Assembly: GCA_949288145.1 (NCBI GenBank)
Contig: CASEJD010000051.1
Location: forward strand, 1 to 35,791
Direction: 5' to 3'
DNA length: 35,791 bases
Source: an uncultured Coriobacteriia bacterium
GTDB lineage: Bacteria; Actinomycetota; Coriobacteriia; Coriobacteriales; Eggerthellaceae
Each line of letters opens with the position of its first letter. Within the stretch, counting starts at the first letter, position 1. This document shows, in pieces, positions 540-30,106 of this stretch. The notes beneath the pieces are model-generated. The model was given only the letters and a program-made list of their open reading frames with translations, was not told the DNA's origin and searched no databases. Both the position numbers and the translations under genes were made by a program.

Positions 540-614
540 GTCCCCATAGTCTAGAGGTCAGGACGCGGCCCTTTCAAGGCTGAGACACGAGTTCGATTCT
601 CGTTGGGGGCACCA
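540..614 (+). tRNA. tRNA-Glu (anticodon UUC)
   Basis: A full cloverleaf can be folded. The acceptor arms are GTCCCCA (540-546) and TGGGGGC (604-610), with one G-U pair. The anticodon stem CGGCC/GGCTG encloses the loop CTTTCAA, placing TTC at the anticodon. The T arm is ACGAG/CTCGT around TTCGATT. The discriminator A (611) is followed by an encoded CCA (612-614). An upstream promoter and an immediate intrinsic terminator show a single-gene transcript. No partial copy of the 3' end was seen elsewhere in the window, so there is no sign that the gene served as an integration site for the neighbouring locus. Confidence 0.96.
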
Positions 615-5998: not shown

Positions 5999-6057
5999 CC
6001 CCTCGCCTTCGCACGGAGCGTTAAGTGGGCGAGGAGACGAGAGAAAGAGAGCGATTC

Positions 6058-8201: not shown

Positions 8202-9038
8202 GGCGCTGGTGCGCTTGAGCGCAAGAATGCCGTTGTCCTCCACGAAGTCCGTGTACTCCATGTTGCGGTACGCGAAGCAGACGTCCTTGACGGAGCCTTC
8301 CATGCGCTTGTGGCCCTTCTCGATCCACAGCGCCTGCTTGCACACGCGCTCGACCTGGTCGATGGAGTGCGAGACGAACAAAAGCGTGGTGCCGTGGTTT
8401 TCGACCAGGTCGTTGATGCGCCGCTCGCACTTCTCTTGGAATATGAAGTCGCCGACGGAGAGTGCCTCGTCCACCACGAGCACATCAGGCGTCGTGGCGG
8501 TGGCGATCGCGAACGCGATGCGAGCGACCATGCCCGAGGAGTAGTTCTTGAGCGGCATGTCGATGAACTCGCGAACTTCGGCGAACTCGACGATCTCGTC
8601 GAAGTGCTCGTCGATGAACTTCTTGCTGTATCCAAGGAGGGAGCCGTTCAGGTACACGTTCTCACGAGCGGTCAGGTCAAGGTCGAAGCCTGCGCCGAGC
8701 TCGATCAGCGGGGCGATGGAACCGTAGACCTCGCACGTGCCGTGCGTGGGCTGCAGCACGCCCGAGATGATCTTCAGCAGCGTTGACTTGCCCGAGCCGT
8801 TCGTTCCGACGATGCCGTACACATCACCGCGGTTGACCGTGAAGGAAATGCCCTCGAGCGCCTTGAACTCTTTGAAGAACAGTTTGCCGCGAACAAGCGC
8901 GATAAAGTACTCCTTCAGGCTGTTGAGCTGTTCGTTGGCAATGTTGAAGACCATGTTGACGTCATCGACCACGATGAGCGGCCGCTTCGCGTCTGCACGG
9001 TTGGGGTCTTTCGCGCTCTTGCGCAGGGTGTCCGCCAT
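7245..9038 (-). CDS. Polysaccharide ABC exporter ATPase with C-terminal SLH-like repeats
   Basis: The 597-residue protein starts at ATG 9038 behind AGGAG. Residues 20-265 are a nucleotide-binding domain of the Wzt/TagH class: Walker A GTNGSGKST (78-86), signature YSSGM (166-170), Walker B PDVLVVDE (184-191) and the H-loop SHS (223-225). From about residue 280 to the end the protein consists of about five modules resembling S-layer homology domains. The clearest is at 435-483 (YYDYVTEHGLISGYDTGAF, then NDPVTRAQAITIFWRAAG). Two more C-terminal ones are good and two N-terminal ones are worn. Wzt proteins often carry a C-terminal carbohydrate-binding domain in this place. SLH domains are normally extracellular, so their presence on a cytoplasmic ATPase is odd. 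The permease lies 12 bases upstream. Confidence 0.93.
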   Translation of the reverse strand: MADTLRKSAKDPNRADAKRPLIVVDDVNMVFNIANEQLNSLKEYFIALVRGKLFFKEFKALEGISFTVNRGDVYGIVGTNGSGKSTLLKIISGVLQPTHGTCEVYGSIAPLIELGAGFDLDLTARENVYLNGSLLGYSKKFIDEHFDEIVEFAEVREFIDMPLKNYSSGMVARIAFAIATATTPDVLVVDEALSVGDFIFQEKCERRINDLVENHGTTLLFVSHSIDQVERVCKQALWIEKGHKRMEGSVKDVCFAYRNMEYTDFVEDNGILALKRTSAQDLKKPVTVGTIVLALWRSVGKPAAKKTLESADETAEAMAWGVESGIVREALAHEADREATRLELAQIVRAFSSWRKPSADGYDPVDATSYADDMPDDNADRVAVEWCVSHKLIAADKQADGSMELALDKPASHVALARAITRLFKKVYSYPSDVQPADWFVLPGYYDYVTEHGLISGYDTGAFGPNDPVTRAQAITIFWRAAGQPAPASPAPFDDVPPEEFFAPAVAWAAENGIVSADQAELFRPNDSATIEELAEFAVRYAASQQGEAAPDAIENATAWCQERGILNPAPGDAGGAKLVTRAEMTKLIAIIQRDIL

Positions 9039-9050
9039 AATCCGCAGCTC

Positions 9051-9839
9051 CTAAACGTAGAAGATGAACTTGGATTCGACTTTTCGGAACACGAGGAATC
9101 CGACCAGGAACGTGATGGCGGCCATGCCGAAGCACACAAGGTTCTCGGTCATGCCGGGATGCGTGTTCCACATCACGATGTCACGGAAGTACGTGATGTA
9201 GTGGTACATGGGGTTGAACTCCATAGCCTGGCGAATCCACGGATCGAGCAGATCGACAGGGTAGAAGATAGGGGTGGCGTACGTCCATGCAGTGATGACG
9301 ACGCCCCAGAGGTGGCACACGTCGCGGAAGAACACCGCCAGCGCCGCGAGCAGCAGCCCGATGCCCGACGAGAACAGCAGCACGTAGAACAGCAGCACGG
9401 GCATGAGCAGCAAGTTAGCGGTAGGCCATACTTGAAAGAAGAGCATGACCATGACGACCGCCACAAGCGAGATGGCGAAGTTCACGAGCTCGAATGCCGC
9501 CTTCTCGAGCGGGAAGATCATCTTCTCGACGCGAACCTTCTTGATAAGTGGCGCTGCTTCGATGATTGACCACATGGCCGCGTTGGTGGAGTTCTGCATG
9601 AGGCTGAACATGACCGTGCCGAGAATGAGGTAGAGCGGGTAGTTCTCGATGTTGCCGAAACGCAGGAACATGCTGAAGACTGCCGAAAGAACGATCATCA
9701 TGAGCAGCGGGTTCAGAATTGACCAGAGAATGCCCAGAATGCTGCGGCGGTATTTCAGCTTGAAGTCTTTTGAAACGAGCGAGAACAGGATGAACTTGTT
9801 CTTGCTCCACACAAGCTTGCGGATTTCCTTGGTCGACAT
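9051..9839 (-). CDS. Polysaccharide ABC exporter permease (Wzm/TagG family)
   Basis: The 262-residue protein starts at ATG 9839 behind AAGGAGA; longer upstream starts lack such a site. It has an N-terminal amphipathic stretch ending in DFKLKYRRSILGILWSILNPL, the ABC2-type signature of this family, followed by about six membrane helices. The loop ATPIFYPVDLL and the segment NPMYHYITYFRDIV are also typical of Wzm/TagG/RfbA permeases. It forms an operon with the ATPase gene 12 bases downstream. Together they should export a lipid-linked polysaccharide or teichoic-acid-like polymer from the cytoplasm, which makes the locus ABC-dependent. No Wzx or Wzy gene is visible. Confidence 0.94.
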   Translation of the reverse strand: MSTKEIRKLVWSKNKFILFSLVSKDFKLKYRRSILGILWSILNPLLMMIVLSAVFSMFLRFGNIENYPLYLILGTVMFSLMQNSTNAAMWSIIEAAPLIKKVRVEKMIFPLEKAAFELVNFAISLVAVVMVMLFFQVWPTANLLLMPVLLFYVLLFSSGIGLLLAALAVFFRDVCHLWGVVITAWTYATPIFYPVDLLDPWIRQAMEFNPMYHYITYFRDIVMWNTHPGMTENLVCFGMAAITFLVGFLVFRKVESKFIFYV

Positions 9840-10039
9840 AGGTCTCCTTGGACAGGTCTCGCGTTCCAATGTATCAAAGCACTTATTATACGGTAGTGGG
9901 TCGCGAGTTGTTGTGCAGGTATGCAATCGTCACGAACTGTTGCCGTCCGGAAGGCAAAGCGCTCCGCAGCCCAGGCTCCCCGCACCTCTGTATGCTACTA
10001 TGGCAGCGTTATGTACGCCGAATAGGGGAGACCACTCAT
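9840..10039. promoter_or_regulatory. Divergent promoter region between exporter and GT2 operon
   Basis: On the - strand TATAAT (9890-9885) lies 45 bases before the permease start. On the + strand TATGCT (9991-9996) or TACTAT (9996-10001) could serve the GT2 gene at 10040. That gene has AGGGGAG (10024-10030) as its ribosome-binding site. Neither direction has a good -35. No gene is seen in this gap. Confidence 0.5.
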
Positions 10040-15614: not shown

Positions 15615-15874
15615 ACGGGAGCACCTTTCGTCGTGCAATTGGTCGGATGGAATACATAAAAGCGCCCTGAGGCGCGCAGTTGGCATCCTAAAGTAAAATC
15701 GAGCGTAAGCACAAGAGGGCAGACGAGAGTCGGCTGGTTGCTTGAATCGCGCCGATTCCTTGGCGGCGCATGCTACGCGCGTTTTGCCCGTGGTGCTTCG
15801 AAATAGGGGCAATGATGGTACGATATGAAAGTTAGCTATCTTTCGTCATGGGAGTCACAGAACGGGAACGCTGC
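15615..15874. promoter_or_regulatory. Divergent intergenic region
   Basis: The only recognisable signal for the + strand is TACGAT (15819-15824), with TTCGAA 15 bases upstream as a poor -35. The following GT2 could start at ATG 15848 (no ribosome-binding site) or ATG 15875 (weak GGGA). On the - side only a weak TTTACT-like -10 is seen near 15695. No gene was found in these 260 bases. Confidence 0.35.
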
Positions 15875-16579
15875 ATGAAGGTACTGGTCATCATCCCCGC
15901 GTACAATGAATCGGAAAGCATCGCCAAGGTCGTCGATGACATCCGCAGCAATGTGGACTACGACTTTGTGGTCATCAATGACGGCTCACGCGACGACACT
16001 GTTTCGATTTGTCGCAATCTGGGGGTAGCGGTTGTTGATCTGCCGCTGAACCTCGGTATTGGCGGCGCTGTTCAAACGGGGTATAAGTACGCTCATCGCA
16101 ACGGCTATGACGTCGCTATCCAGTTTGATGGCGACGGTCAGCATGATGCGCGCTACCTGGGACGACTCGTCGACGCATTGTCGGAAAAGAAGGCTAATCT
16201 CGTTATCGGGTCGCGCTTCGTGGACAAAGGTGAAGAGGGCTTCAAGTCCACGCTCATGCGGCGTATCGGCATTCGCTGGCTCTCGAGTTTTATCCGCTTG
16301 TTCTCCGGCATGCGAATCACGGATCCGACTTCGGGTTTTCGCGCCGCCGACAAGAGCGCGATTGCTTTTTTCTGCGAGAGCTACCCGATTGACTACCCTG
16401 AGCCAGAATCGATCGTCGCGCTGCACTCTGCCGGGTTATCCGTTGCCGAAGTTCCTGTCTCTATGAGAGAACGACAAGGCGGCTCCTCTTCCATCAAAGC
16501 GCTTTCGTCGATTTATTACATGATCAAAGTCTCTTTGGCGGTCGCGATTCAGAGCTCTCGCCGCGAGAAGAAAGCGTAG
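15875..16579 (+). CDS. DPM1-like GT2 glycosyltransferase without membrane anchor
   Basis: The 234-residue protein is almost only a GT-A domain of the dolichol-phosphate-mannose-synthase type: VLVIIPAYNESESI, INDGSRDDT, LNLGIGGAVQTGYKYA, FDGDGQHD (metal binding) and DPTSGFRAADK. It ends shortly after the domain with a basic tail and has none of the C-terminal membrane helices of the GtrB at 801. Start 15875 is preferred because it gives the standard family N-terminus; ATG 15848 would add nine residues. The next gene, 6 bases downstream, encodes a DUF2304 membrane protein that may supply the anchor. It is expected to make a polyprenyl-phosphate sugar. Confidence 0.85.
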   Translation: MKVLVIIPAYNESESIAKVVDDIRSNVDYDFVVINDGSRDDTVSICRNLGVAVVDLPLNLGIGGAVQTGYKYAHRNGYDVAIQFDGDGQHDARYLGRLVDALSEKKANLVIGSRFVDKGEEGFKSTLMRRIGIRWLSSFIRLFSGMRITDPTSGFRAADKSAIAFFCESYPIDYPEPESIVALHSAGLSVAEVPVSMRERQGGSSSIKALSSIYYMIKVSLAVAIQSSRREKKA

Positions 16580-16585
16580 GCAATC

Positions 16586-16948
16586 ATGGCGTTTGAACTT
16601 CGCATCTTGCTGGGAGTCGTCAGCATCATTTTCTTCTGCTTCGTTCTTTTGCGCGTGAGGAAGGGCAGGCTTTTGCTGCCGCATGCGTTCGTGTGGCTTC
16701 TTATTGCCGTGCTGGGTATTGTGGCGAGCGTGTTCACGGGCGTTGTTGCTGCGTGTGCCCAGCTCTTCGGGTTCGAGACCGCATCCAATTTCGTGTTTTT
16801 CCTTGTGATGCTGTTCGCTCTCGCGTTTCTGTTCTTCTTGAGCATGGTCGTCTCCAAGCAGACGCTGCAGATTAAAGGGCTTGTGCAAGAGCTTGCTCTC
16901 TTGAGGTCTGAGCTTACGCGGCGCAATGGCGAGGAGGAGGGTCGATGA
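16586..16948 (+). CDS. DUF2304-like small membrane protein
   Basis: The 120-residue protein has three predicted membrane helices (about 5-22, 33-58 and 68-90) followed by a charged helix (about 92-112). From memory this size, layout and basic first loop (RVRKGRLLLP) fit the DUF2304 family, whose genes commonly sit beside DPM1-like GT2 genes. It lies 6 bases after such a gene and overlaps the next by 4 bases (ATGA), so the three are one translation unit. I infer that it anchors or assists the soluble GT2, comparable in idea to the small subunits of eukaryotic dolichol-phosphate-mannose synthase. No biochemical role is established that I know of. Confidence 0.78.
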   Translation: MAFELRILLGVVSIIFFCFVLLRVRKGRLLLPHAFVWLLIAVLGIVASVFTGVVAACAQLFGFETASNFVFFLVMLFALAFLFFLSMVVSKQTLQIKGLVQELALLRSELTRRNGEEEGR

Positions 16949-19002
16949 GCGAAATGCCGCGCATTCCGTTTCATGCTAAGAATGTCCGTCATGGAGCGAG
17001 GTCGCGCAATCTGGCAGCGCCGTCTCGTTCAATGCATGATCGCTTCCTCGCGCTCGTCCGGAATCCGGGCGCGTGCATGGCTCTTGTTGCGTGCTCGCTT
17101 GTGGCGGTCTTCTTGTGCCAACTCAACCTTGGCTACGTTGACCCGGCTGGCGCCGTCGAGGCATACGGCACCGAAAGTCGCGTTCTTAAGCTCGCTTGGG
17201 TTTTCTCCCACTCGGTCGGGCTGGCGTTTCCTGAGGACTTGGCGCTTGTTGTCGTTGTATTTGCTTTGTTCGGCATGTTCTGGTCGCTCGAGTCTCGAAA
17301 AAAGCGCTCCGTCACATCGGGGATTCTTGCGTTCTTCTTCTCATGCTGCATGGTGGCGGGCGGTGTTTTCTCGGGCTCTGAGACAGGGTTTGACGCGTAC
17401 GAGCTTGCAAAGATGCTTTTGTCGGCAGTGGGCTATTTTGCCATGCTCTATGCCGGCCTTGCGCTCGTCCAATGGTTCCTGGACGAGAAGGTGGCGTCAG
17501 CTGACGCCACTCGTGCAGGGCGCGTTGTGGCGTTCGTGTTCGAGCGGCATGCTTTCCTTGCCCCGCTCGCGATCATCGCAGTCGCATGGCTGCCGTATCT
17601 CATTCTGTGCTACCCGGGTACGACAGATCCGTTCGACGTCCTTGACCAGCTTGAGCAATATCATGGTATTTACTCGCGCACCGCTGCGTGGGTGGATTTT
17701 GACCAAGACTCCTGGCTGTACGTGAGCAACAACAACCCGTTCTTTTCAACGGTGGTGACGAACTCGTTCATTGATTTCGGGTCGTTCATCGGGTCGCAGA
17801 ACATCGGTATGTTCCTGCTCGTTTTGCTCCAGTCTGCCTTGCTGGCGTCCGGATTTGCCATGACGGTCAAGTTGCAGAAGATGATGCGCTCGCCTTATGT
17901 TCTACGCTTCGTCTCGATCGCGACATTCGCGTTCGCGCCGTTGTTCCCGTGCTATGCCATCTGCATCACGAAAGACACGTTGTTCACGGGCTTGGTTCTC
18001 TGGTTCATTCTGCTCCTCGTGCTTGCCATCTGGGACAAGAGCTTGTTCATGCGGCATAAAGGGCTGTTCGTCGCCTTCTTCCTTGTGACGCTGTTCATGG
18101 CGCTTATTCGCAACAATGGTGTGTACATGCTGTTCTTGACGATTCCGTTCATCTTCCTTGTTCGCGGAAAACAGTCGAAGATTATCGGCGGCCTTGCCTG
18201 CTGCGTCATAGTTGTCTATATGGCGTACGGAAACGTAGTGCTTCCTGCTTTGGGTGTTGAGGGCGGCAGCGTGAAGGAAATGCTCTCCGCTCCCTTCCAG
18301 CAGACAGCACGCTACGTTTCGACGTACCCCGAAGAAGTGACCGAAGAGGAGCGAAGCGCCATCGAGGGGGTTCTTGAGTACGAAAGCCTGTTCTCGTACG
18401 ATCCCGGCCTTTCGGACGGCGTGAAGGACACGTATGACAAGGATGCAACAAGCGAAGAATTATCTCGTTACTTCTCCGCATGGCTGAGCATGGGGCTCAA
18501 GCATCCGCTTACGTACGTGGAGGCAACTGTCGCGAATTGCTATTCGTACTTCTACCCTCAGACGACTGCGGGATGGGTATGGACGCAGCTGAACCGTTAC
18601 GGCGCGAACGACTCGCTCGATTTGACGCCTGATTACAACGAGTCTGGTTTCTATATGGAGCAAAACCCCGCATGGGAGCCGTATCGGTCGGCGCTGACTC
18701 AGTGGTACACGACCGTCAACAACTCCGTGTTCGCATACGTCACCAACATGGGTCTGTGCGCATGGGTGATTCTTGCGTTCGCGGCATTTTTCGTACGGAA
18801 GCGCGCGTGGGGTGGCGTGGCGCCACTTATGCCAATCGTGGTATTGCTGCTGGTGTGCGTCCTGTCTCCCCAGAACGGCAACATCCGTTACGCTTTGCCC
18901 ATGATTGCCGCCACGATGACGCTCGTGACGTACGGTGTGGGTATGTTCGTTGCGCGTCGTGCCGACAAAATGCTCCAAGATACGCAGAGGATAGAGCACT
19001 AA
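16945..19002 (+). CDS. Large polytopic membrane protein (DUF6020-like), possible glycan transferase
   Basis: The 685-residue protein starts within the stop of the DUF2304 gene, after GAGGAGGGTCG. It has a basic N-terminal tail of about 40 residues, then some 12-14 membrane helices. A long extracytoplasmic region (about 435-585) carries segments such as YVSTYPEEVTEEE and PLTYVEATVANCYSYFYPQ. The stretch LPYLILCYPGTTDPFDVLDQLEQYHG after the fifth helix, with acidic residues in an external loop, resembles DUF6020 proteins as I remember them and is GT-C-like in layout. Co-translation with a polyprenyl-phosphate sugar synthase suggests it uses that lipid donor on the outer face. Its stop overlaps by 4 bases the stop of the convergent GtrA gene. 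Confidence 0.72.
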   Translation: MSEMPRIPFHAKNVRHGARSRNLAAPSRSMHDRFLALVRNPGACMALVACSLVAVFLCQLNLGYVDPAGAVEAYGTESRVLKLAWVFSHSVGLAFPEDLALVVVVFALFGMFWSLESRKKRSVTSGILAFFFSCCMVAGGVFSGSETGFDAYELAKMLLSAVGYFAMLYAGLALVQWFLDEKVASADATRAGRVVAFVFERHAFLAPLAIIAVAWLPYLILCYPGTTDPFDVLDQLEQYHGIYSRTAAWVDFDQDSWLYVSNNNPFFSTVVTNSFIDFGSFIGSQNIGMFLLVLLQSALLASGFAMTVKLQKMMRSPYVLRFVSIATFAFAPLFPCYAICITKDTLFTGLVLWFILLLVLAIWDKSLFMRHKGLFVAFFLVTLFMALIRNNGVYMLFLTIPFIFLVRGKQSKIIGGLACCVIVVYMAYGNVVLPALGVEGGSVKEMLSAPFQQTARYVSTYPEEVTEEERSAIEGVLEYESLFSYDPGLSDGVKDTYDKDATSEELSRYFSAWLSMGLKHPLTYVEATVANCYSYFYPQTTAGWVWTQLNRYGANDSLDLTPDYNESGFYMEQNPAWEPYRSALTQWYTTVNNSVFAYVTNMGLCAWVILAFAAFFVRKRAWGGVAPLMPIVVLLLVCVLSPQNGNIRYALPMIAATMTLVTYGVGMFVARRADKMLQDTQRIEH

Positions 19003-19507: not shown

Positions 19508-19546
19508 GGAGAAAGCGTGTTGAAACTCTTGCGGAAAGGTGCGTGC

Positions 19547-22258
19547 ATGGTGATGAAGAGGAGAAATCGCATCGCGTCGACATTGCTCGCAATTCTCTTG
19601 GCGTGGGGGATGTGTCCTGTGGCATATGCCGATGAAGCCATTGTCGAGCCGGCGACGGAAGACATGCAGCAGAGCGAGCAGGCAAGCGAAGTCGTTAAGG
19701 CTAGCCCCGCAGGCTCCGAAGAGCTTTCTCCCGAGCAGGAAACGACCGGATCCATTGAAAGCGGTGCTCCCGCAGATGAAGACATCGAGGAGCCCCTTGA
19801 GGGGGATGGGTCCGCCGGTGAAGAAGGCATGGATGATCCTGGCGCTTCGGTTGATCCTGAGCAGCCGTCCGACCCCTCTCAAGACGAGCCAGCAAAAGGC
19901 GAGCCGGTGCTCGCTGCCGGCACCTACCTGATTCGCACGTTGCTCGCTGATTCCCAGGTGGTCGAGGTGGCGAACGGTGGTTTGTACAATTGCGCGAACG
20001 TTCAGCTCTATGAGTCGAACATGACGCAAGCGCAGCGCTTCCGCGCCGAGGTTGACTCACGGGGTCTTTACACGTTTGTCAACGAGAAGTCTGGCAAGGT
20101 GCTTGACATTGCTTCTGGCCGCGCCGAAAACGGCGCAAACGTGCAGCAATACGAGTCGAATGGAACGATGGCTCAGAAGTGGCGCCTCGTGGAGAACGCT
20201 GACGGCTCGTTCACGGCGCTGAGTGCTCTGGACGAATCTCTTGCGCTCGATGTATCGAACGGCGTTGCTGCGAACGGCTCGAATGTCCAGGTGTATGAGT
20301 CAAACCAGACGACTGCACAGAAGTTCTCTTTCATTCCGACGACGCCAGAGCTGCCCAGTCCTGACGCACTTGAACCGGGCGTGTACTATTTGAAGTCCGC
20401 GCTCGATACGACGTATGCAATCGACGTGCCCGATTATTCGTCGGAGAATGGCACGAAGCTTCAGCTTCATAAGGCTGGAGGAAACATCGCTCAGATGTTC
20501 CGCGTCGTAGTGGACGAGGATGGACTGGCACGCATTCTGAGCGTCAACTCCGGAAAGGCGCTCGACGTTCCGATTGGCAACCTTGTTCCCAGCGTTCGAG
20601 TTCAGCAATGGGACGCCGCGAATAGCCCTATTCAGAAATGGGTTCCGCTGGCTAACGTCGATGGGACGTTCACGTTCGTTTCGTGCGCAAACGGCCTTGC
20701 CCTCGACGTCAAGGGCGGCTCTGCCGCGAACGGCTCTGCCATTCAAACGTACACGCGAAACGGCACCGCCGCTCAAAGCTGGGTGCTCGAGACGGTTGGG
20801 AGCGTTGTGGCTGACGGGTATTACACGCTCGTGTCGATGCTCGATCATAGCAAAGTCGCTGACTTGAAGAACGGCTCCTTTGATGAAGGCGCCGTGCTGA
20901 ACCTGTTTTCCCGCAACGATACCCCAGCGCAGAAATTCAGGATTAAGAACGTCGAGTGCGAAGTCGACGATTCTATCGTGCGGGGTGTGACGCTGCAGTC
21001 TATGGCGAGCGGCCTGTATTTGACTTCGGGCAAAGACGGCGTGCACTTCGCTTCCGCCTCGTCTGACTCCGGGTCCCAGTCGTGGCTTGCCGCCGCTGGT
21101 GCTGCCGGCGGCGTGACTTTCGTGAACGTGGCAACGGGTCTGGCGCTTGACGTTTCGGGCGGAGGTACGTACGACGGGTGTTCCATCGGGGGATATGAGC
21201 CGAATGGCACTCCTGCTCAAGCGTTCCGGCCTATTGGCGTAGATCCTGTTTCGTACGGCACATACATTGTGTGGTCGTGCGCTGACGGCAGGGTTTTGGA
21301 CGTGGCGAACGGATCGCGCTCGAACGGCGCGAATGTCCAGGCATGGACCAGGAATGGCTCGGGCGCCCAGGCGTGGATCGTGCAGGGCATTGGAGACGGG
21401 TATTACCGTGTGGTCAACGCCCGCTCGGAATGCGCGCTTGACGTGGCGGAGGGCGTTGCCGCGAACGGCACGAACGTTCAGCAGTGGGCGGTTGCCAACG
21501 GCGCTGCTCAGAAGTGGCGTATCGTTGTGAACGACGACTGTTCGCTAACGTTTCTTTCGGCGTGCGGGGGCCTTGCCCTGGACGTTAACGGAGGGGGCGG
21601 ATACGACGGCGCCAACGTTCAAATCTACGAGCAGAACGGCACTGCAGCCCAGCGCTTCCGCTTGATTCCAACCACGTATGTGCGCGAAGACTTCGAGGAC
21701 TTGCTCGGCACGTTCACCACGTACTCCCAAAACACGTGGAATGGAACGTACAACATGCAGAAGGCGCTCGACCAGTTCAACGGCGTCGTGCTGCAACCGG
21801 GCGAAAGCATGTCGTTCTACGGCGTGACCGGACGGTGCGGCGCTGCCGAGGGCTATTTGCCCGCTGGCGTGGTTGGCGGCATTGGCTACGGCGGCGGAAT
21901 TTGCCAGGCGTCGACCACGATTTATGGCGCGGCTATTCGTGCCGGTTTTGGCATCGTCGATCGCCAGAACCACTCGGTTCCTTCGGTGTATGTGCCTATT
22001 GGATTGGATGCGATGGTGAGCTGGGGGTCATCTGATTTGGTGGTCCGCAATGATACGGGGCATCCGGCAAAGATCGTCACGCACACCTACGACAACGTGC
22101 TCACGTGCGAGATTTGGGGCATCCAGCCGGATTGGTACGATAGCATTGAGCCAATCTCGTGGTACACGGGCACGTCCTCTGCGGCGGCTCAGCGCATCTT
22201 CTACAAGAACGGTTCTGCAGTGTACACCGAGTGGCTGCCTTCCTCGTATTATTGGTGA
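19547..22258 (+). CDS. Secreted protein with four beta-trefoil lectin domains and VanW domain
   Basis: The 903-residue product starts at ATG 19547 after GGAAAGGTG. Residues 1-28 are a signal peptide (MKRRNR, hydrophobic core, cleavage after AYA). An acidic, Pro/Glu/Ser-rich linker reaches residue about 123. Residues 124-709 hold twelve ricin-B-like units in four trefoils, each unit built around LDV...NGxNVQxYExNGTxAQKW. Residues about 715-885 are a VanW domain (TYNMQKALDQFNGVVLQPG, GGGICQASTTIYGAA). VanW was first seen in vancomycin-resistance clusters; its biochemical role is not settled, though VanW-type domains share the L,D-transpeptidase-accessory setting in some proteins. The whole should be extracellular, bound to wall glycan. 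There is no sorting signal or membrane anchor. A strong terminator follows. Confidence 0.93.
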   Translation: MVMKRRNRIASTLLAILLAWGMCPVAYADEAIVEPATEDMQQSEQASEVVKASPAGSEELSPEQETTGSIESGAPADEDIEEPLEGDGSAGEEGMDDPGASVDPEQPSDPSQDEPAKGEPVLAAGTYLIRTLLADSQVVEVANGGLYNCANVQLYESNMTQAQRFRAEVDSRGLYTFVNEKSGKVLDIASGRAENGANVQQYESNGTMAQKWRLVENADGSFTALSALDESLALDVSNGVAANGSNVQVYESNQTTAQKFSFIPTTPELPSPDALEPGVYYLKSALDTTYAIDVPDYSSENGTKLQLHKAGGNIAQMFRVVVDEDGLARILSVNSGKALDVPIGNLVPSVRVQQWDAANSPIQKWVPLANVDGTFTFVSCANGLALDVKGGSAANGSAIQTYTRNGTAAQSWVLETVGSVVADGYYTLVSMLDHSKVADLKNGSFDEGAVLNLFSRNDTPAQKFRIKNVECEVDDSIVRGVTLQSMASGLYLTSGKDGVHFASASSDSGSQSWLAAAGAAGGVTFVNVATGLALDVSGGGTYDGCSIGGYEPNGTPAQAFRPIGVDPVSYGTYIVWSCADGRVLDVANGSRSNGANVQAWTRNGSGAQAWIVQGIGDGYYRVVNARSECALDVAEGVAANGTNVQQWAVANGAAQKWRIVVNDDCSLTFLSACGGLALDVNGGGGYDGANVQIYEQNGTAAQRFRLIPTTYVREDFEDLLGTFTTYSQNTWNGTYNMQKALDQFNGVVLQPGESMSFYGVTGRCGAAEGYLPAGVVGGIGYGGGICQASTTIYGAAIRAGFGIVDRQNHSVPSVYVPIGLDAMVSWGSSDLVVRNDTGHPAKIVTHTYDNVLTCEIWGIQPDWYDSIEPISWYTGTSSAAAQRIFYKNGSAVYTEWLPSSYYW
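19919..21673 (+). repeat. Twelve ricin-B-like repeat units (four beta-trefoils)
   Basis: Units of 42-50 residues recur in sets of three, about 145 residues per trefoil. Most end in the QxW/QxF type signature (AQKW, AQRF, AQSW). The units of the third trefoil are the most divergent: one of them lacks the LDV core and reads LYLTSGKDG. Repeats are diverged at DNA level, so this is an old expansion rather than a recent slippage. Confidence 0.88.
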
Positions 22259-22347: not shown

Positions 22348-23058
22348 CTAGCTTTCTTCCTGGTCATTTTCCTCAACATAAATCCCCTTCTGCCCGAACA
22401 CGGCACCGAAGGTGGCGAAGAAGACCTTCACGTCCAGGGCGAACGTCACGTTGTGGACGTACCACACGTCAAGCTTCAAGCGTTCGTGCCACGGGGCGGA
22501 GTTGCGCACCTTCACGGCGCTGTACCCGGTGATGCCCGGTTTCACGAGCAGCTTGTCGCCCTCGTTGCCCTCGTAAAGTTCGGTCTCGCGCTTGAGGTCG
22601 GGGCGGGGCCCCACGACGCTCATGTCGCCTTTGAGCACGTTCAGGAACTGCGGGAACTCGTCAAGGCTCGTCTTGCGCAGGAAGGCACCGATCTTCGTCA
22701 TGCGCGGGTCGTCGGCCCCGTTGTACGTGGAGCCGTCGGGCATGAGCAGATCGGGCGCGTTCACTTTCATGGAGCGGAACTTGTACATGGTGAACTCGCG
22801 GCCGTTCTTGCCCACGCGTGGCGCGTTGTAGAACACGGGCCCTTTGTCCTCATGGGCGATCATGGGGCCCACGATCGCCATGAGCACGAGCACGAAGGGA
22901 AGCGCCACTAGGCCGATGGCGATATCGCAGGCGCGTTTGCCCACGCGCAGGTACGCGGTCTCCTTGAACGGCGGGTACTGGTCGGTGCCATAGCGGCCTT
23001 CGCCTGCCGTCGAATGGCATTCCGCGCCCACCATGCTCGTCTTCTCGGCGTCGCTCAT
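22348..23058 (-). CDS. Polyprenyl-phosphate sugar-1-phosphate transferase (PglC/WbaP family)
   Basis: The 236-residue protein starts at ATG 23058, overlapping the stop of the aminotransferase gene (ATGA), so it is translationally coupled. One hydrophobic segment (about 44-67) precedes the conserved catalytic domain: APRVGKNGREFTMYKFRSM, LRKTSLDEFPQ with the Asp-Glu catalytic dyad (133-134), KGDMSVVGPRP, and VKPGITGYSAVKVRN. It has the minimal monotopic PglC-like size rather than the long WbaP form with extra helices. The enzyme transfers a sugar-1-phosphate from a UDP-sugar to undecaprenyl phosphate, the first membrane step of glycan assembly. Next to an aminotransferase, the sugar may be an amino sugar (inference). 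Confidence 0.95.
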   Translation of the reverse strand: MSDAEKTSMVGAECHSTAGEGRYGTDQYPPFKETAYLRVGKRACDIAIGLVALPFVLVLMAIVGPMIAHEDKGPVFYNAPRVGKNGREFTMYKFRSMKVNAPDLLMPDGSTYNGADDPRMTKIGAFLRKTSLDEFPQFLNVLKGDMSVVGPRPDLKRETELYEGNEGDKLLVKPGITGYSAVKVRNSAPWHERLKLDVWYVHNVTFALDVKVFFATFGAVFGQKGIYVEENDQEES

Positions 23059-24494
23059 CGGTCTTCCATCTCGCGCGCGATGTCCTCAGGGCTCACCGGC
23101 TGCTCCTCGTCGCCCACGGCGAAGGCGCGCGGCGCGGCGTCGCCGCTCCATCCGCCCGTCTCGTCCATGCGCTTGATGTACGCCTGCAAGCGCGCTTCCG
23201 CCGCGCTCTCGCCGGTCGCGGCGCCAAGCCCTTCGGCTTCCGCTTGCTCCATGGCGCGCGCGAGCTCTGCCACCACGCGGTCGACGTCCTCGTCAGAGAG
23301 CAGCGTGTGCAAAGGCAGCGTGATCTCGTTGCGGAATTGCTTGTAGGCGTTCGGGTAGTCCTTGATGTCGAACCCGAGCTCCCGGTACGCCGTCATCATG
23401 GGCAGCGGCTTGTAATGGACGTTCGTAGAGACGCCGGCTTCCGCCATGAGCTCGATCACGCGGTTGCGGAACGCCTCCTCGCGTCCGTCCAGGCGAACGA
23501 GCATCAAATGCCCGCTCGACGTGCCCCAGCGGCCATAGTGCTCGAGCGTGGTGACCGGCAGGCCGGCAAGGCCGCGCTCGTAGCGCTCGATGATCTCGCG
23601 ACGTCGAGCCAGCAGGGCGGGGTAACGGTCAAGCTGCACGCCGCCGATAGCCGCCATGATGTCGGTCATGTTGTACTTCCAGCCAAGGAACTCTATGTCG
23701 TACTCCCACGCGCCCGCTTTCGTCTTGGCCAGCGCGTCCTTGCTCTGACCGTGCAGGGAGAGCAGCATGACGCGCCGGTACAGCTCCTCGGAGGTCACTG
23801 CCGGCGCTGCTGGGGCGTTCCATGCCATTGGGTCGGCCGCCGCTCGCGGCAGGCGCCATGCCAGCCCACCGCCCTCGGCGGTGGTGAAGTTCTTCACGGC
23901 GTGGAACGAGAACGTGGTGAAGTCCGCCACGGACCCGCATTTCATGTCGTGCCAGGTGGCGCCGAGGGCATGCGCTGCGTCGGCGACGATGGGGATGCGG
24001 TCGAAACAGCGCTGGACGTCGGTCTCGGGGCGCCATTTCGCACGGTTGAGCTGCAGCATGCTGCGCAGTTGATTGTAGTCGCACATGCGTCCGGCGATGT
24101 CCACAGGGATGACGGCCTTCGTCCGCTCGGTGATGGCGTCGGAGAGCGCCATGTAGTCCATCTCGTACGACCCGGGAGCCGTGTCCACCAGTACGATCTT
24201 CGCGCCCACGTGGTGGATGGGCGAAGCGGAGGCGGTGTAGGTGTACGCGCTCGTGATGACCTCGTCGCCCGGGCCGATGCCAAGCAGGCGCAGGGCGCAC
24301 TCAAGCGCGGCGGTGGCGGAGTTCAGGCAGGCGAAGCCATCGGCGCCGGTGAAGGCGCACAGGCGGCGTTCGAGCTCTTTCGTGCGCGGGCCGGTGGTGA
24401 TCCAGCCGCTGCGCAGCGCGTCCGCGACCGCTTCGACCTCAGCCTCGGTGATGTCCGGTGGGCTGAACGGGATGGGCTTGCGGCATTCTGCCAT
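23055..24494 (-). CDS. DegT/DnrJ/EryC1-family PLP sugar aminotransferase
   Basis: The 479-residue protein starts at ATG 24494 after a perfect AGGAGG. Fold-type I features are clear: SGWITTGPRTKELE, NSATAALECALRLLGI, DEVITSAYTYTASASP, VADAAHALGA (Asp172 contacts the PLP ring), and SFHAVKNFTTAEGG with Lys201 as the Schiff-base lysine. The usual length is 370-400 residues. The excess comes from an insertion at about 145-168 and an acidic C-terminal tail of about 75 residues with no recognisable domain. Such enzymes aminate nucleotide-linked keto-sugars, for example in bacillosamine or amino-fucose pathways. No dehydratase partner is in the window. It is co-transcribed with the sugar-1-phosphate transferase. 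Confidence 0.94.
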   Translation of the reverse strand: MAECRKPIPFSPPDITEAEVEAVADALRSGWITTGPRTKELERRLCAFTGADGFACLNSATAALECALRLLGIGPGDEVITSAYTYTASASPIHHVGAKIVLVDTAPGSYEMDYMALSDAITERTKAVIPVDIAGRMCDYNQLRSMLQLNRAKWRPETDVQRCFDRIPIVADAAHALGATWHDMKCGSVADFTTFSFHAVKNFTTAEGGGLAWRLPRAAADPMAWNAPAAPAVTSEELYRRVMLLSLHGQSKDALAKTKAGAWEYDIEFLGWKYNMTDIMAAIGGVQLDRYPALLARRREIIERYERGLAGLPVTTLEHYGRWGTSSGHLMLVRLDGREEAFRNRVIELMAEAGVSTNVHYKPLPMMTAYRELGFDIKDYPNAYKQFRNEITLPLHTLLSDEDVDRVVAELARAMEQAEAEGLGAATGESAAEARLQAYIKRMDETGGWSGDAAPRAFAVGDEEQPVSPEDIAREMEDR

Positions 24495-24608: not shown

Positions 24609-25862
24609 CTACGTTAGCGATTGGACGAGCCGCACGATCTCCAGGTACGACGTGTTTTGATCGAACTCGCGCTCGGCAACCTGCCGCGCGCGCATGCCCA
24701 TAATCTTTCGCTTGCTGCTGTTCACGCCAAGTCGCTCTATCGCTTCGGCGAGGGCGGGCACGTCTTCCGCCTCCACGTTCAGTCCGAAGCCGTCACTCGC
24801 GACTTTGGTGCGGAACTCGGGGCTCGAACCGGTGTTGACCATGGGCTTGCCACTGGCAAGGTAATCTCCGATTTTCGTGACGATGGATTGCGCCGCGCTG
24901 CGGACGAGGGAGTTTACCACGATGTCGCATTTCGAAAGCCACGCCGCCATGTGCGGGTAGTCTTGGTATCCCAGGAAGCGCACGGGCGCGCGGAAGTCCT
25001 GCGCCTCGCGCTCGAGCCGCTCTCGGTCGGGGCCGTCGCCCAGGATGAGCACGCGCAGGTTCGGTAGTTTCGCGTCCAGCAGCGCGGCAGCCTTGATGAG
25101 CGTGGAGAGGTCGTAGCTCGCGCCGAGCGTGCCCGCGTAGGCGACCCAGAGCTCGTTCGCGGGCTTCTCGATTTCGCTGGCATACTGAGCGACGCCGGCG
25201 TCGAACGCTTTGAGATCGTTGCCCACGTACACCGTGCGGGTGGGGCAAGGGCGCTCTCGGTCTTTGAGCGGGCGGGCGGCGTACTCATCGCTCGTGCCCA
25301 CGGCGGCGGCGCACAGGTTGTAGACGATCTTCGCGTCGCGCGCGAACGAGTGGAACGCCACGTCGCTCACGAGCGGCACGTCGACGACCATGCGCATGGC
25401 CTCGGGCCACAGGTCGTTCACGTCGACGACGAACGGGATGCCCTCGTCGCGAGCGGCCTCGGCGCACGCGCGGGCGACGTCGTTTGGTGGAATCTCCGCG
25501 TAAACGAGGGCGTAACGCCCGCGGTTCGCCTCGAAGTGCGCGCGCATGTTCTTGGCGGCAATGCTGTGGCTGCGAATGCGCCCGAGGTCTAGGTTGCGCT
25601 TGTAGCCCGGCTCGTCGATAAACACCACGTTGTACGGAAGGTTGCGGTAGCACGCTTTCGTCACATCGCGGTGTGCCTTCTCCCAGTGCTGGAAAGAAGA
25701 CGTGATGAGGTCGACATCGAAGCCGTGCTCGGCGAGCATCTGCGCGATGAACCGGAAGCGCGTGTAGCCACGCGTCTCGTCACCGAGCTTCACGCCCATG
25801 GTGACGACGGCGACGCGCAAACGTTCGCGCTGGCGGGGGGATGTCTTCGGAGTCTGTTCCAT
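24609..25862 (-). CDS. GT4-family glycosyltransferase
   Basis: The 417-residue protein starts at ATG 25862; longer in-frame starts lack support. It is a GT-B enzyme. The N-terminal acceptor domain runs from RLRVAVVTMGVKLGDETRGYTRF. The C-terminal donor domain carries VAYAGTLGASYDLSTLIKAA, LILGDGPDRERLEREA, FLGYQDYPHMAAWLSKCDIVV and TKIGDYLASGKPMVNTG, in the place of the GT4 EX7E region. It is cytoplasmic or peripheral, adding a sugar to a lipid-linked glycan. There is no ribosome-binding site before the ATG, but a TATAAT ends seven bases upstream, so the mRNA is probably leaderless. It is separated by 114 bases and a promoter from the aminotransferase. Confidence 0.9.
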   Translation of the reverse strand: MEQTPKTSPRQRERLRVAVVTMGVKLGDETRGYTRFRFIAQMLAEHGFDVDLITSSFQHWEKAHRDVTKACYRNLPYNVVFIDEPGYKRNLDLGRIRSHSIAAKNMRAHFEANRGRYALVYAEIPPNDVARACAEAARDEGIPFVVDVNDLWPEAMRMVVDVPLVSDVAFHSFARDAKIVYNLCAAAVGTSDEYAARPLKDRERPCPTRTVYVGNDLKAFDAGVAQYASEIEKPANELWVAYAGTLGASYDLSTLIKAAALLDAKLPNLRVLILGDGPDRERLEREAQDFRAPVRFLGYQDYPHMAAWLSKCDIVVNSLVRSAAQSIVTKIGDYLASGKPMVNTGSSPEFRTKVASDGFGLNVEAEDVPALAEAIERLGVNSSKRKIMGMRARQVAEREFDQNTSYLEIVRLVQSLT

Positions 25863-25869
25863 GGGCGGG

Positions 25870-25875
25870 ATTATA
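25870..25875 (-). promoter_or_regulatory. Perfect TATAAT -10, likely leaderless promoter of GT4 gene
   Basis: On the - strand TATAAT is followed by seven bases and then the ATG of the GT4 gene. This matches the GtrA gene at 1906 (eight bases). No -35 or ribosome-binding site is visible. The rest of the gap up to 26087 holds only the + strand promoter of the next gene. Confidence 0.62.
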
Positions 25876-26033
25876 CGGCATGCAAAGCGTCTCCTGCGCG
25901 CGGTCGCGGCTGGGATTTTTCGACGGCAGGCGTATTGGCGCCGCGTACGATGGCGCGGTGCCGAACAAGGGGCCATTTCATCCGCACGTGCGCCCGAAGC
26001 TGAAATCTCGGACGATGTGACGCATTGCGGGGA

Positions 26034-26039
26034 TACACT
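26034..26039 (+). promoter_or_regulatory. -10 element TACACT of the GT80-like lectin gene
   Basis: TACACT is identical to the element before the GT2 gene at 4649. It would give a leader of about 42 bases containing GAAAGGTGGGG just before ATG 26088. Confidence 0.45.
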
Positions 26040-26087
26040 TGAAATGCCTGTTCGAATGGCGTGTTGGAAACGTAGAAAGGTGGGGAT

Positions 26088-28994
26088 ATGGCAAACGGAA
26101 CAGTTGGCTCTGCTAGCCTGGAGAAGTTTGCGCTCAAGGCTGTAAGTTGCGCGCTCGCGCTCGTGCTCGCGCTGTCGCTTTCTCCGATATCGACCGCTTT
26201 TGCCGACGAGGTCTTCCAAACGGCTTCGGATGCGGTTCGGCAAGCAGAGTCCACCGACCAAGAGAGTGGGTTAGACGCGCCCGCGGATGCTGTCGAGGCA
26301 GAGACGGAGCGAGAAGCCGGCTACGAGGCGTCGGGCATTGCGGCGCCTTCCGAGGAGGAGGGCGGCCAAGGAGGCGCGATCTCCCCAGAAGACGTCTACG
26401 CGGTTGAGTTCGTGCCGGTAAAGAACACCACGAGCGTGACAGTGGCTGTTCCGGGGGCGGCGGAGCTTGCCTCCGCGGAGACCGTCGATACCATCGTCGT
26501 CGAAGCGACCATGTCGCATGGGGGGAAGACGACGCGCGAGGTGTCTGCCGAGAGTGACCTTGCGGTACTCGCTGCGGCAGGGGGATCCTTCAGTGTTGAT
26601 TTCGGCGATTTCGGCGCGTTTTCTGCCGTCGTGCGATTCTGCAATGGCGAGCAGGTCGTTCATGAAACGAGCGTCCAGACGGTCGGTGTCACGGCGGACA
26701 CGTACAACATCTCCCCCGTGAGCGCGACGCTCCCGGTTACGATGTTTTCGCTTAATCTGTGGGGAGAGGGCAGTATTCGTGAGTCTGGTCCGGTTATCTT
26801 GCTGATGGAGCGCCCGAGCAGTTACGACTGGGATGCCATGCCCGGTCCCGAAGACGGCGCGTACGGCATGTACGGTCTCCCGTACTTCACCAAAGACGAG
26901 ATTTCGTACCAGCCCGCCGATTTCCGAGCTGCGGCAGACTTGTTCTGCGAACGAGTCTCCACCATGGCTGACTACGTGGGCGATTTGATGGAGCTCGATC
27001 CGACCAGCCATGTGAACCTGTACTGCGTCGACGGCTATGTCGACCTGGTTCAGTCCATTATTTACGCGAACGGCATCCCGGAAGACCAGTACACCATCAC
27101 GGTGATGTCCGACGGAACGTTCACCTACGAGCAGTTCGCAAGCGCGTACGGTAGCGAGCAGCCTGCGCAGCAACATGAGGCGCTCGTGGCGCAGTGGGAG
27201 GCGGCGAAGAAGTACGCATACCAGAATGGGCGCGTTGCTGACGGCTATGGTCCTTGGCAGGCGTGTAACCAGTTCTGGGCAGCGGTTGACTCCGAGCCGA
27301 ACGCGCAACTGTGGGTGGCTCGCAAAGACCTTCTTGTCAGCCCGAGCGACGAGAACGCGTTCGGGCTCTCCGTCCAGGGGAGCTCCAAGGTCGTGCAGGT
27401 AAGCATCGCTTCGCTTCTGCAAACGAACATCCAGTCGAATGCCGCGAACCAGGAAGCGTTCAAAGCGCTGTACAATTTCAACGATAGCTATTTCTCCGCC
27501 GCGGAAGAGCAGGGCAAGAAGGTCATGCTCTTCTTGGGAACGCGCGTTGACGTGGAACAGAACTTCTCTGATTACGCGCGCTTCGTGATGTCGTACTACG
27601 GTGACGAGTATGCTTACTACTACAAAGGCCACCCCGCCACGCCGACCGATATGCATCCGAGCAAAGTGACGGAACTGGACTCGCTTGGCGTTACCGACGT
27701 CGACTCGTCCGTTGCCGCAGAGCTGATTCTGTTCTTCAACCCTGAGATTTATCTGTCTGGGTACGGGTCGAGCACGTATGCCAGCGTGCCTGAAGGCATG
27801 GCGAAGGGCATGTTCGCCATGACGAAAGAGCAGGGATTGGCGAACCCGCAATACCAGAACATGGATTACTGGATGAGCAAGGTCGATCCGAACGGCTCGA
27901 CGAGCGTTGCCGCTGAGTGCGTGGCTGGTCACGAGACCTTCCTAGTCGAGTTTTCTGATGCGGTTTCCGCGGCTGCGGGCTACGATATTGCGCTTTGGGA
28001 TTCCACGTCTGCCACGATTCGATACTACCAGTACGCTTCCGACGGGAGCTTGCTGTTCGTTTCGCAGCAGGAGGGTATGGCGGGCGCTCGCCCTGTCGCA
28101 GAAGGCACCTACGCGATTATGGCATCGTGCGCGTCTGGCAAGGTGCTCGACGTAGCGGGAGGATCGCTCTTCAATTGTGCCAACGTGCAATTGTACGGAT
28201 ACAACGGGACTTCGGCGCAGCAATGGAACGTTTCGTACGACGAAAGCGGACTCGCCACGATAACGAACGTCGGTAGCGGCAAGGTGCTTGACGTGACGTC
28301 GGGGCAGGCTGTTTCCGGGGCGAACGTCCAGCAGTACGAGAGCAACGGAACGCTTGCGCAGAAATGGAGCATCGAGCAGCGCTCGGGCGACACCGTGGTG
28401 ATCAGGTCCGCGCTCGATGGTGGCATCACGCTTGACATTGCGAGTGCGGGAACGAGCAATGGAACGAATGTCCAGGTTTGGGAGGCGAACGGTACGGTGG
28501 CTCAGGCATTCGAGTTCCTGCCGGTGTACCCGTCCGTGTCCGTGGAAGGCCAGGCCAATCTTGATGGCACCTATCGAATCCTGAGTGCGGTTGATACCGA
28601 CTACGCCATCGACGTGGCGGATTGGAGCCAGCAAGATGGTGGGCGCCTCCAGGTTTGGCAGTCTGCCGGCACGGAGAATCAGGAGTTCCGCATCGAGCGT
28701 TTGGACAACGGCTACTACTCCATTACAAGTGCGTGGTCGCACAAGACGTTCGACGTGACGGACGGGAGCATTGTCCCCGGAACGCCCGTGCAGCAATGGG
28801 ATCGCAGCGCGAACGCCGCAAACCAGCAATGGCGCATCGTCGAGGGAACGGGCGGTATGTACACGTTCCAAAACGTGAAGACAGGGCTGATGCTCGATCT
28901 CGCGGGCGGTATGGCATACAACGGGCGCGGTCTTGACGTCTACACCCCCAACGGCACACAAGCGCAACGGTGGCTTCTTGTGCCCGTCGACTAG
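26088..28994 (+). CDS. Secreted GT80-like (sialyltransferase-like) protein with two beta-trefoil lectin domains
   Basis: The 968-residue protein has a signal peptide (cleavage after AFA, residue 39), an acidic linker to about 98, an Ig-like beta region (about 100-205), a large middle domain (about 210-650) and two ricin-B trefoils (about 673-968). The middle domain shows, in order, SDGTFTY (341-347), a buried LFLGTR strand (471-476), YYYKGHP (510-516) and GYGSSTYASVP (558-568). I remember GT80 bacterial sialyltransferases having YDDGS, FxGT, YFKGHP and ASSLYFSLP in this order. The His of KGHP and the Ser pair bind CMP in that family. The first acidic residue of the DDG motif is Ser here, so activity is uncertain. 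The assignment is by motif memory, not alignment. Its lectin part is homologous to that of the protein at 19547. Confidence 0.75.
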   Translation: MANGTVGSASLEKFALKAVSCALALVLALSLSPISTAFADEVFQTASDAVRQAESTDQESGLDAPADAVEAETEREAGYEASGIAAPSEEEGGQGGAISPEDVYAVEFVPVKNTTSVTVAVPGAAELASAETVDTIVVEATMSHGGKTTREVSAESDLAVLAAAGGSFSVDFGDFGAFSAVVRFCNGEQVVHETSVQTVGVTADTYNISPVSATLPVTMFSLNLWGEGSIRESGPVILLMERPSSYDWDAMPGPEDGAYGMYGLPYFTKDEISYQPADFRAAADLFCERVSTMADYVGDLMELDPTSHVNLYCVDGYVDLVQSIIYANGIPEDQYTITVMSDGTFTYEQFASAYGSEQPAQQHEALVAQWEAAKKYAYQNGRVADGYGPWQACNQFWAAVDSEPNAQLWVARKDLLVSPSDENAFGLSVQGSSKVVQVSIASLLQTNIQSNAANQEAFKALYNFNDSYFSAAEEQGKKVMLFLGTRVDVEQNFSDYARFVMSYYGDEYAYYYKGHPATPTDMHPSKVTELDSLGVTDVDSSVAAELILFFNPEIYLSGYGSSTYASVPEGMAKGMFAMTKEQGLANPQYQNMDYWMSKVDPNGSTSVAAECVAGHETFLVEFSDAVSAAAGYDIALWDSTSATIRYYQYASDGSLLFVSQQEGMAGARPVAEGTYAIMASCASGKVLDVAGGSLFNCANVQLYGYNGTSAQQWNVSYDESGLATITNVGSGKVLDVTSGQAVSGANVQQYESNGTLAQKWSIEQRSGDTVVIRSALDGGITLDIASAGTSNGTNVQVWEANGTVAQAFEFLPVYPSVSVEGQANLDGTYRILSAVDTDYAIDVADWSQQDGGRLQVWQSAGTENQEFRIERLDNGYYSITSAWSHKTFDVTDGSIVPGTPVQQWDRSANAANQQWRIVEGTGGMYTFQNVKTGLMLDLAGGMAYNGRGLDVYTPNGTQAQRWLLVPVD
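28104..28991 (+). repeat. Six ricin-B-like repeat units (two beta-trefoils)
   Basis: Six units of about 45-50 residues form two trefoils at the C-terminus, ending two residues before the stop. The unit containing GANVQQYESNGTLAQKW is nearly identical to one in the protein at 19547 (GANVQQYESNGTMAQKW), so the two lectin arrays share a recent ancestor. Confidence 0.88.
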
Positions 28995-29160
28995 CGCTTG
29001 AAAAGACGAGCTGAAGGCTTTGCCCGCTGCCCGCCTTCAGCTTCAACGAGCAACCAAGTGTGTGCGCTTGATTGAAACGAGCGAGGCCCCGATTGGGGCC
29101 TCGCTCGCATGATGAACCTATTGCTTTCGGTTTGCCTCGACGCGTGCGCGCCCTCTTTTC
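28995..29160. other. Gap with two long inverted repeats after the lectin gene
   Basis: A 10-bp stem (29009-29018 with 29033-29042, loop 14) and a perfect 13-bp stem (29078-29090 with 29095-29107, loop GATT) follow the stop. Neither has a good T-run on the + side. The second is followed by TTTCAAT when read on the - strand. They probably stabilise or end the lectin transcript. No gene is seen here. Confidence 0.5.
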
Positions 29161-29188
29161 TTGACATCCTCCGATGATTCCGTACCAT
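29161..29188 (+). promoter_or_regulatory. Promoter of metN with perfect -35
   Basis: TTGACA (29161-29166) and TACCAT (29183-29188) are spaced by 16 bases. This is the best -35 in the window. Transcription would begin near 29196, giving a leader of about 150 bases before ATG 29345. Confidence 0.6.
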
Positions 29189-29195
29189 GTTCATG

Positions 29196-29344
29196 CTATG
29201 TGTCTTGAAGCCGTACATACCGCGATGATGAGGTGCATGCCCAAGCCTGGGTTTGTCGGCATGTGCGCTGACGCTCAGGCCTAGCTTACCTGCGGCCCCG
29301 CCGCGCCCTTTGTCATTGCAGTTCAGTACGAGGTGCATTCACAT
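29196..29344 (+). promoter_or_regulatory. Structured metN leader, no known riboswitch recognised
   Basis: The leader contains nested inverted repeats: GCATGCC (29235-29241) with GGCATGT (29258-29264), enclosing CCCAAGCCTGGG (29240-29251). I could not match the SAM-I, SAM-II or SAM-IV cores. GAGGTG (about 29330-29335) serves as ribosome-binding site for ATG 29345. Confidence 0.35.
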
Positions 29345-30106
29345 ATGATCGAGATACAGAACCTCACGAAGACGTTCGGTGCGGGGGAGGCGTCCCACAC
29401 CGCGCTTCGTGATATCAACCTGACCATCGAGGATGGCGACGTCTTCGGCATCATCGGCCAGTCCGGCGCCGGCAAGTCCACGCTCGTGCGCTGCATCAAC
29501 CTGCTCGAGCATCCTACGAGCGGCAAGGTCCTCATCAACGGTCGTGACATCACGGGCCTCAAGGGCAAAGAGCTGCTCGACCTGCGCAGCAGCATCGGCA
29601 TGATCTTCCAGAACTTCAGCCTGTTCCAGCAGCGCACCGTGCTGCGCAACGTCATGTTCCCGCTCGAGTTGCGCCATGAGAACAAGCAGAAGGCGGAGTC
29701 TCGCGCGAAAAAGCTCCTGGAGCTCGTCGGCCTGGAGAACAAGGCGAACAACTACCCCAGTCAGCTCTCCGGCGGCCAGCAGCAGCGCGTCGCCATCGCG
29801 CGCGCCCTTGCCAACGACCCGAAGGTCATGCTCTGCGACGAGGCCACAAGCGCGCTCGACACGCGCACCACGGCGCAGGTGCTGAACCTGCTGCGCGACA
29901 TCAACCGCGAGATGGGCGTGACGATGGTCGTCATCACGCACTCGCTCGCCGTTGCTGAGCAGATCTGCAACAAGGTCGCGGTCATCGACGACGGCGCGGT
30001 GGTGGAGCAGGGCTCCACGGAGCAGGTGCTCAAGAACCCGCAAAGCCCCGTGACGCGCGAGCTCATCGGTATGAACTTCGCGCACGGCGAAGAGGGGGTG
30101 CGCTAA
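29345..30106 (+). CDS. metN: Methionine ABC transporter ATPase, short form
   Basis: The 253-residue protein powers uptake of methionine with MetI and MetQ. Walker [10 protein letters not shown] (38-46), Q-loop FQNFSLF, signature LSGGQQQ (141-147), Walker B VMLCDE (161-166) and the switch His in ITHS are all present. The start [11 protein letters not shown] is typical, with GAGGTG nine bases upstream; an in-frame GTG at 29333 is possible but would sit inside that site. E. coli MetN is about 343 residues. This one ends right after the ATPase domain and lacks the C-terminal NIL (ACT-like) domain that binds methionine and inhibits transport. The stop codon directly abuts metI. The identity rests on the gene context. 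Confidence 0.92.

Follow-up and report, generated by a model that had tools for sequence, protein, structure and literature searches.

The window analysed here, namely the whole 35,791-nt stretch of contig CASEJD010000051.1 from an uncultured Coriobacteriia bacterium, carries a gene at positions 26088–28994 whose product of 968 amino acids is in all likelihood an exported GT80-like enzyme with an intact catalytic centre. The open reading frame (ORF) is confirmed as a real gene rather than a chance one, since the sole match of the GT80 profile PF11477 in the whole 2.1-Mb genome falls here (E = 0.034) and 22 columns of the immunoglobulin (Ig)-like and GT-B region are invariant among 55 sequences. 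A candidate ribosome-binding site (RBS; gaaaggtggggatATG, with the RBS-like letters GAAAGGTGGGG) is read 5' of the ATG, and a promoter and terminator scan of 25600–29400 gave no signal above chance. The gene and its product are laid out as follows:

26088–28994, forward strand: exported GT80-like GT-B protein with ricin-B trefoils, 968 aa (ORF reading)
26088–26207, forward strand: signal peptide, residues 1–40, cleavage predicted near AFA/DE (sequence reading)
26208–26384, forward strand: acidic, low-complexity linker, residues 41–99 (sequence reading)
26391–26699, forward strand: Ig/FN3-like beta-sandwich, residues ~102–204 (model residues 3–105 resemble FN3 domains, Z 9–10)
26700–28007, forward strand: GT-B domain of GT80 type, residues ~205–640 (AlphaFold2 model, Foldseek, VIA)
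28101–28511, forward strand: first ricin-B trefoil, residues ~672–808 (Pfam)
28560–28991, forward strand: second ricin-B trefoil, residues ~825–968 (Pfam)

The signal peptide reads KFALKAVSCALALVLALSLSPISTAFA followed by DE, and the middle region presents the motifs SDGTFTY (residue 341), YYYKGHP (510) and GYGSSTYASVP (558) in this order. The ricin-B trefoils (PF14200, E = 7e-53; PF00652, E = 4e-22) are the only significant Pfam matches in the protein. Sequence reading and Pfam thus agree with the earlier note on this DNA, which had described a signal peptide, an acidic linker, a beta-rich region, the ordered middle motifs and two ricin-B trefoils.

An AlphaFold2 model of residues 100–665, built from the alignment of the window protein and its relatives (55 sequences), reached a mean predicted local distance difference test score (pLDDT) of 94.8 and a predicted template modelling score (pTM) of 0.90. 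In a Foldseek search of the PDB, ranks 1–3 were GT80 enzymes of Photobacterium (E = 1.3e-13 to 3.8e-10), while the GT38 polysialyltransferase 5wc6 appeared at rank 15 (E = 4e-4). When the Foldseek matches were re-aligned with VIA, ranks 1–20 were all GT80 (Z 15.7–19.6, 341–362 residues aligned) and the next unrelated GT-B protein followed at Z 10.0. The VIA alignment to Photobacterium 2z4t spans model residues 12–548 and starts inside the Ig-like domain. The GT-B fold and distant GT80 kinship that had been proposed for this protein are therefore borne out by the structure prediction and Foldseek comparison then called for, which put GT80 at the top.

At the sequence level this relationship is distant. 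The window protein scores 11.7 bits against PF11477, under the Pfam curated cut-off of 25 bits, and a single-sequence phmmer search reached PmST1 chains at E ~0.5 with the KGHP and SS motifs aligned. Profiles from 5- and 55-sequence alignments retrieved no GT80 chain from the PDB sequences, so that GT80 lies beyond the reach of sequence-profile search alone. The family was also compared by profile-profile alignment, as the earlier note had asked, with a GT80 profile that combined the sequences of PDB chains and a GT80 from a Vibrio plasmid. This alignment supported the kinship (P = 6e-6, Prob 85%) and placed the catalytic residues in register, whereas a reversed GT80 profile used as control gave Prob 0.3%. 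Moreover, a spirochaete relative (L064) shares 30% identity with the core of the window protein over 381 columns (E = 5e-44), passes the Pfam GT80 cut-off (27.1 vs 25 bits) and matches the Vibrio GT80 by BLASTP (3e-5), and it thereby bridges the exported family and GT80. The Vibrio protein (L073, 781–1995, on the conjugative Vibrio harveyi plasmid NZ_CP150472.1) is a GT80 relative annotated as hypothetical and has a lipobox-like N-terminus.

Weak matches to GT38 occur in 20 of the 55 members (best E = 1.5e-6), five members match GT80 and one matches GT52 (PF07922, E = 0.0019). The window protein itself gave no match to the GT38 profile PF07388 at E <= 10, and L064 and L045, scanned singly, reached 20.1 and 21.3 bits, under the cut-off of 23.3. 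No NCBIfam model covers the exported family, and the titles and abstracts of open-access literature on bacterial secreted sialyltransferases and on Collinsella held no paper treating it.

In PmST1, residues D141, H311, E338, S355 and S356 have been named as important (PMC4202792), and the profile-profile alignment places them on D342, H515, E545, S561 and S562 of the window protein. PmST1 chain numbering is offset by +24, which was checked, and the chain reads Y-D140-D141-G142-S143. The sites in question are the following:

27030–27032, forward strand: Asp315, invariant in 55/55 sequences, near the PmST1 acceptor-site region, its place relative to PmST1 H112 coming from a low-confidence alignment stretch
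27108–27116, forward strand: S-D-G motif, in which Asp342 corresponds to PmST1 D141 and is the predicted catalytic base (profile-profile alignment, PMC5517516)
27321–27323, forward strand: Arg412, conserved in 53/55 (alignment)
27624–27635, forward strand: KGHP, in which His515 corresponds to PmST1 H311, phosphate contact or catalytic acid (alignment)
27720–27722, forward strand: Glu545, corresponding to PmST1 E338, CMP (cytidine monophosphate) ribose binding (alignment)
27768–27776, forward strand: S-S-T, residues 561–563, in which S561 and S562 correspond to PmST1 S355 and S356, phosphate contacts (alignment)

KGHP is present in all 55 sequences and the Ser pair position holds mostly S or T; the invariance of D342, H515 and E545 points to an enzyme. 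According to PMC5517516, E153 serves as catalytic base in MhPST and D141 in PmST1, where S143 lies two positions further on. Of the two acids in D/E-D/E-G it is thus the second that acts as base, and the window protein retains it. An earlier suggestion that a catalytic acid had been lost through a Ser in place of Asp therefore falls, since the base is kept as D342 in 55/55 and the Ser occupies the neighbouring position. Taken together, the protein is very probably a GT-B glycosyltransferase of the GT38/52/80 superfamily whose fold is nearest to GT80 and which has the base, the acid, the Glu that binds ribose and the two Ser that bind phosphate.

With the GT80 enzymes of Photobacterium (2z4t, 4r83, 2zwi) and Pasteurella (PmST1), the window protein shares the GT-B fold, KGHP and the equivalents of D141, E338 and S355/S356. 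It differs from them in its low identity (12–15%), its score under the Pfam cut-off, the Ser/Thr at the first acid of D/E-D/E-G, its Gram-positive host and its C-terminal surface-binding modules. Photobacterium 2z4t likewise combines an export signal with an Ig-like domain at its N-terminus, as had been anticipated, and in the window protein both the signal peptide and the FN3 matches of the model agree with this. Thus, the claim that no protein of such architecture had been described has to be narrowed, as the signal-Ig-GT80 layout already exists in 2z4t, with its lipobox-like N-terminus. GT38 polysialyltransferases (MhPST, PF07388) have the same catalytic residue set and are connected to the family by the weak matches and 5wc6, although their motif still has its first acid. 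They build capsule intracellularly. As the window protein scores under the Pfam cut-off and departs from D/E-D/E-G in its strict form, it is not filed as a GT80 member; it is placed in the GT38/52/80 superfamily as a new, exported form that looks built to work like a GT80 enzyme.

The exported family comprises 63 loci in bacterial genomes, distributed over Coriobacteriia, Actinomyces, Trueperella, Firmicutes and others, and is widespread in Gram-positive bacteria of the gut and mouth; no relatives were found in plasmid and phage records. By hydropathy, about 50 of the 54 near-complete proteins have an N-terminal export signal, a lipobox or a transmembrane helix, their N-terminal segments having been judged by eye as the automatic lipobox class overcounts. 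With a signal peptide of its own and nearly all of its relatives exported or anchored in these ways, the window protein almost certainly acts outside the membrane. The accessory modules vary, with ChW in 11 of the 55, ricin-B in 10, LRR_5 in 7, choline-binding in 2 and SLH in 1, and choline-binding and SLH modules tether proteins to their own cell surface. In one locus (L020), ChW repeats are also found on the adjoining L,D-transpeptidase, and in another (L013), ricin-B modules occur on a glucosaminidase and a subtilase. The anchors of the family are thus interchangeable and mostly directed at the own surface. This exchange of ricin-B for ChW, choline-binding, SLH, lipobox or transmembrane anchors is the main argument that the trefoils likely tie the protein to a surface glycan of the cell itself, for which the polysaccharide of the surrounding locus is the probable candidate. 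The earlier view of lectin domains holding the protein on a glycan is thereby kept as regards surface attachment, and its target shifts to what is probably the cell's own surface.

The polysaccharide locus precedes the gene and was annotated with Pfam:

603–24494, strand unspecified: cell-surface polysaccharide locus, within which lie GT2 enzymes, DUF6020 and an acyltransferase
6025–7176: UDP-galactopyranose mutase
7245–9926: ABC-2 export pair
19517–22258, forward strand: VanW protein with 12 ricin-B stretches (PF14200)
22348–23058: sugar transferase
23055–24494: DegT aminotransferase

Apart from the VanW protein, which is encoded some 4 kb upstream, no further ricin-B protein was found in the genome (98% complete), and the restriction of these modules to the two proteins suggests that the trefoil ligand is made by the surrounding locus. 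The same distribution led to the rejection of the idea that ricin-B trefoils generally serve as wall anchors in this genome. The polysaccharide-export type ABC ATPase (7245–9038, reverse strand) carries C-terminal SLH domains, which would mean that an export ATPase of the cytoplasm bears a module for binding surface polymers. A tRNA-Glu (540–614, forward strand) stands just before the glycan locus and is a possible insertion point. Neighbourhood clustering over the loci yielded no conserved partner, except for a GT2/DUF6020 pair in a few, so that the acceptor is not named by context. This pair lies near the family gene in three loci, namely the window (15848–19002, forward strand), L013 (12841–15631) and L035 (12632–18478).

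Leloir glycosyltransferases normally act inside the cell, where nucleotide sugars are. In the own genome, PF02348 finds GlmU alone and PF03102 a DAHP-synthase-like ORF alone, both calls read from the ORF translations, and no NeuA or NeuB was found. A true NeuB (>230 bits) is present in 5 of the 50 carrier genomes and a NeuA-like match (~70 bits or more) in 6, the five being shared. Many of the carrier genomes are metagenome-assembled genomes (MAGs), but the 45 without true NeuB include isolates that also lack a strong NeuA, among them Thermophilibacter, Collinsella, Slackia and Anaerofustis. NeuB occurs in 9 of 100 genomes comprising that of the window and its relatives, and its frequency among carriers represents no enrichment, so that carrying the family gene does not track with nonulosonate synthesis. 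From this gene content, the own genome and most carriers are predicted to be unable to make CMP-sialic acid, which agrees with the earlier expectation that a CMP-sugar donor must come from outside.

GT80 acceptors are galactosides. A precedent for an external donor is found in Neisseria gonorrhoeae, which cannot make CMP-N-acetylneuraminic acid (CMP-Neu5Ac) and whose outer-membrane GT52 enzyme Lst uses that of the host (PMC4668040). The window protein resembles Lst in its predicted cell-surface site and in belonging to a species apparently unable to make CMP-Neu5Ac, whereas Lst is a Gram-negative outer-membrane enzyme without lectin modules. On the grounds of this analogy and of the galactoside acceptors, a surface enzyme that uses scavenged CMP-nonulosonate as Lst does would be the best explanation overall, although its chance of being correct is only about even. 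CMP-activated sialic acid or another CMP-nonulosonate would be taken up from outside sources (lysed host cells, other microbes) and its sugar transferred, in an inverting SN2-like reaction, so as to cap surface glycans at galactose-like termini. In this reaction the acceptor hydroxyl would be activated by D342, and CMP would be bound by H515, E545 and S561/S562. This mechanism, including the direction of the reaction, is put forward tentatively, falling slightly short of an even chance.

Several points weigh against such a transferase. The first acid of D/E-D/E-G is replaced in all sequences (Ser in 46/55, Thr in 9/55), and since the E152A change in MhPST lowered activity 300-fold, yet E152 is not the base (PMC5517516), this uniform Ser/Thr is a real difference from the known enzymes and could mean slow turnover or another chemistry. 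Moreover, the profile-profile probability on its own is moderate (82–92%), little CMP-sialic acid is to be expected outside cells, several relatives stem from MAGs without a host tie, and the donor may be Neu5Ac, another nonulosonate, 3-deoxy-D-manno-octulosonic acid (Kdo) or another cytidine sugar. The Ser/Thr found in 55/55 and the attached lectin modules would also suit a catalytically dead surface protein that binds sialoglycans or nucleotides, the alternative of the earlier note. This is highly improbable, given that a binder need not keep the base and that D342, the acid H515, E545 and D315 are invariant in 55/55.

The main rival runs GT80 chemistry in reverse, so that environmental CMP would allow sialic acid to be removed from host or dietary glycans or moved to other acceptors by a CMP-dependent sialidase or trans-sialidase. 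Such activities of PmST1 and Pd2,6ST are mainly reverse sialylation (PMC10795189), export and anchoring suit an enzyme acting on outside glycans, donor synthesis is mostly missing in carriers, and a BNR_2 sialidase match is absent from the own genome and present in 8 of 50 carriers. However, this mode is a side activity in the known enzymes and requires free CMP, and the Pfam-annotated part of the window holds no sialic-acid uptake or catabolic genes, so that we consider it unlikely. A transferase of the same chemistry for another CMP- or cytidine diphosphate (CDP)-activated sugar, supplied externally or via a novel export route, is doubtful as well. The superfamily does include CMP-Kdo transferases (PMC5517516), the conserved donor-site residues touch the cytidine, ribose and phosphate parts of the donor and not its sugar, and NeuA and NeuB are mostly missing in carriers. 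On the other side, no conserved partner stands beside the family gene, and we know of no cytidine-sugar exporter.

The scavenging surface transferase and its reverse mode bear on human-associated genera that carry the family, namely Collinsella, Slackia, Senegalimassilia, Actinomyces and Anaerofustis. If the proposal is true, these bacteria would either collect activated sialic acid from outside or act on host sialoglycans with the help of CMP. It is conceivable, although we lean towards caution, that widespread Gram-positive surface enzymes carry out extracellular nucleotide-sugar-dependent glycosylation with scavenged CMP-sialic acid as donor, or CMP-dependent desialylation, and that commensals unable to make sialic acid may thereby acquire a coat of host-type sialoglycans or alter such glycans. 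The family thus offers a direct test both of self-sialylation of commensals from outside and of the role of the exported GT80 enzymes of Vibrionaceae.
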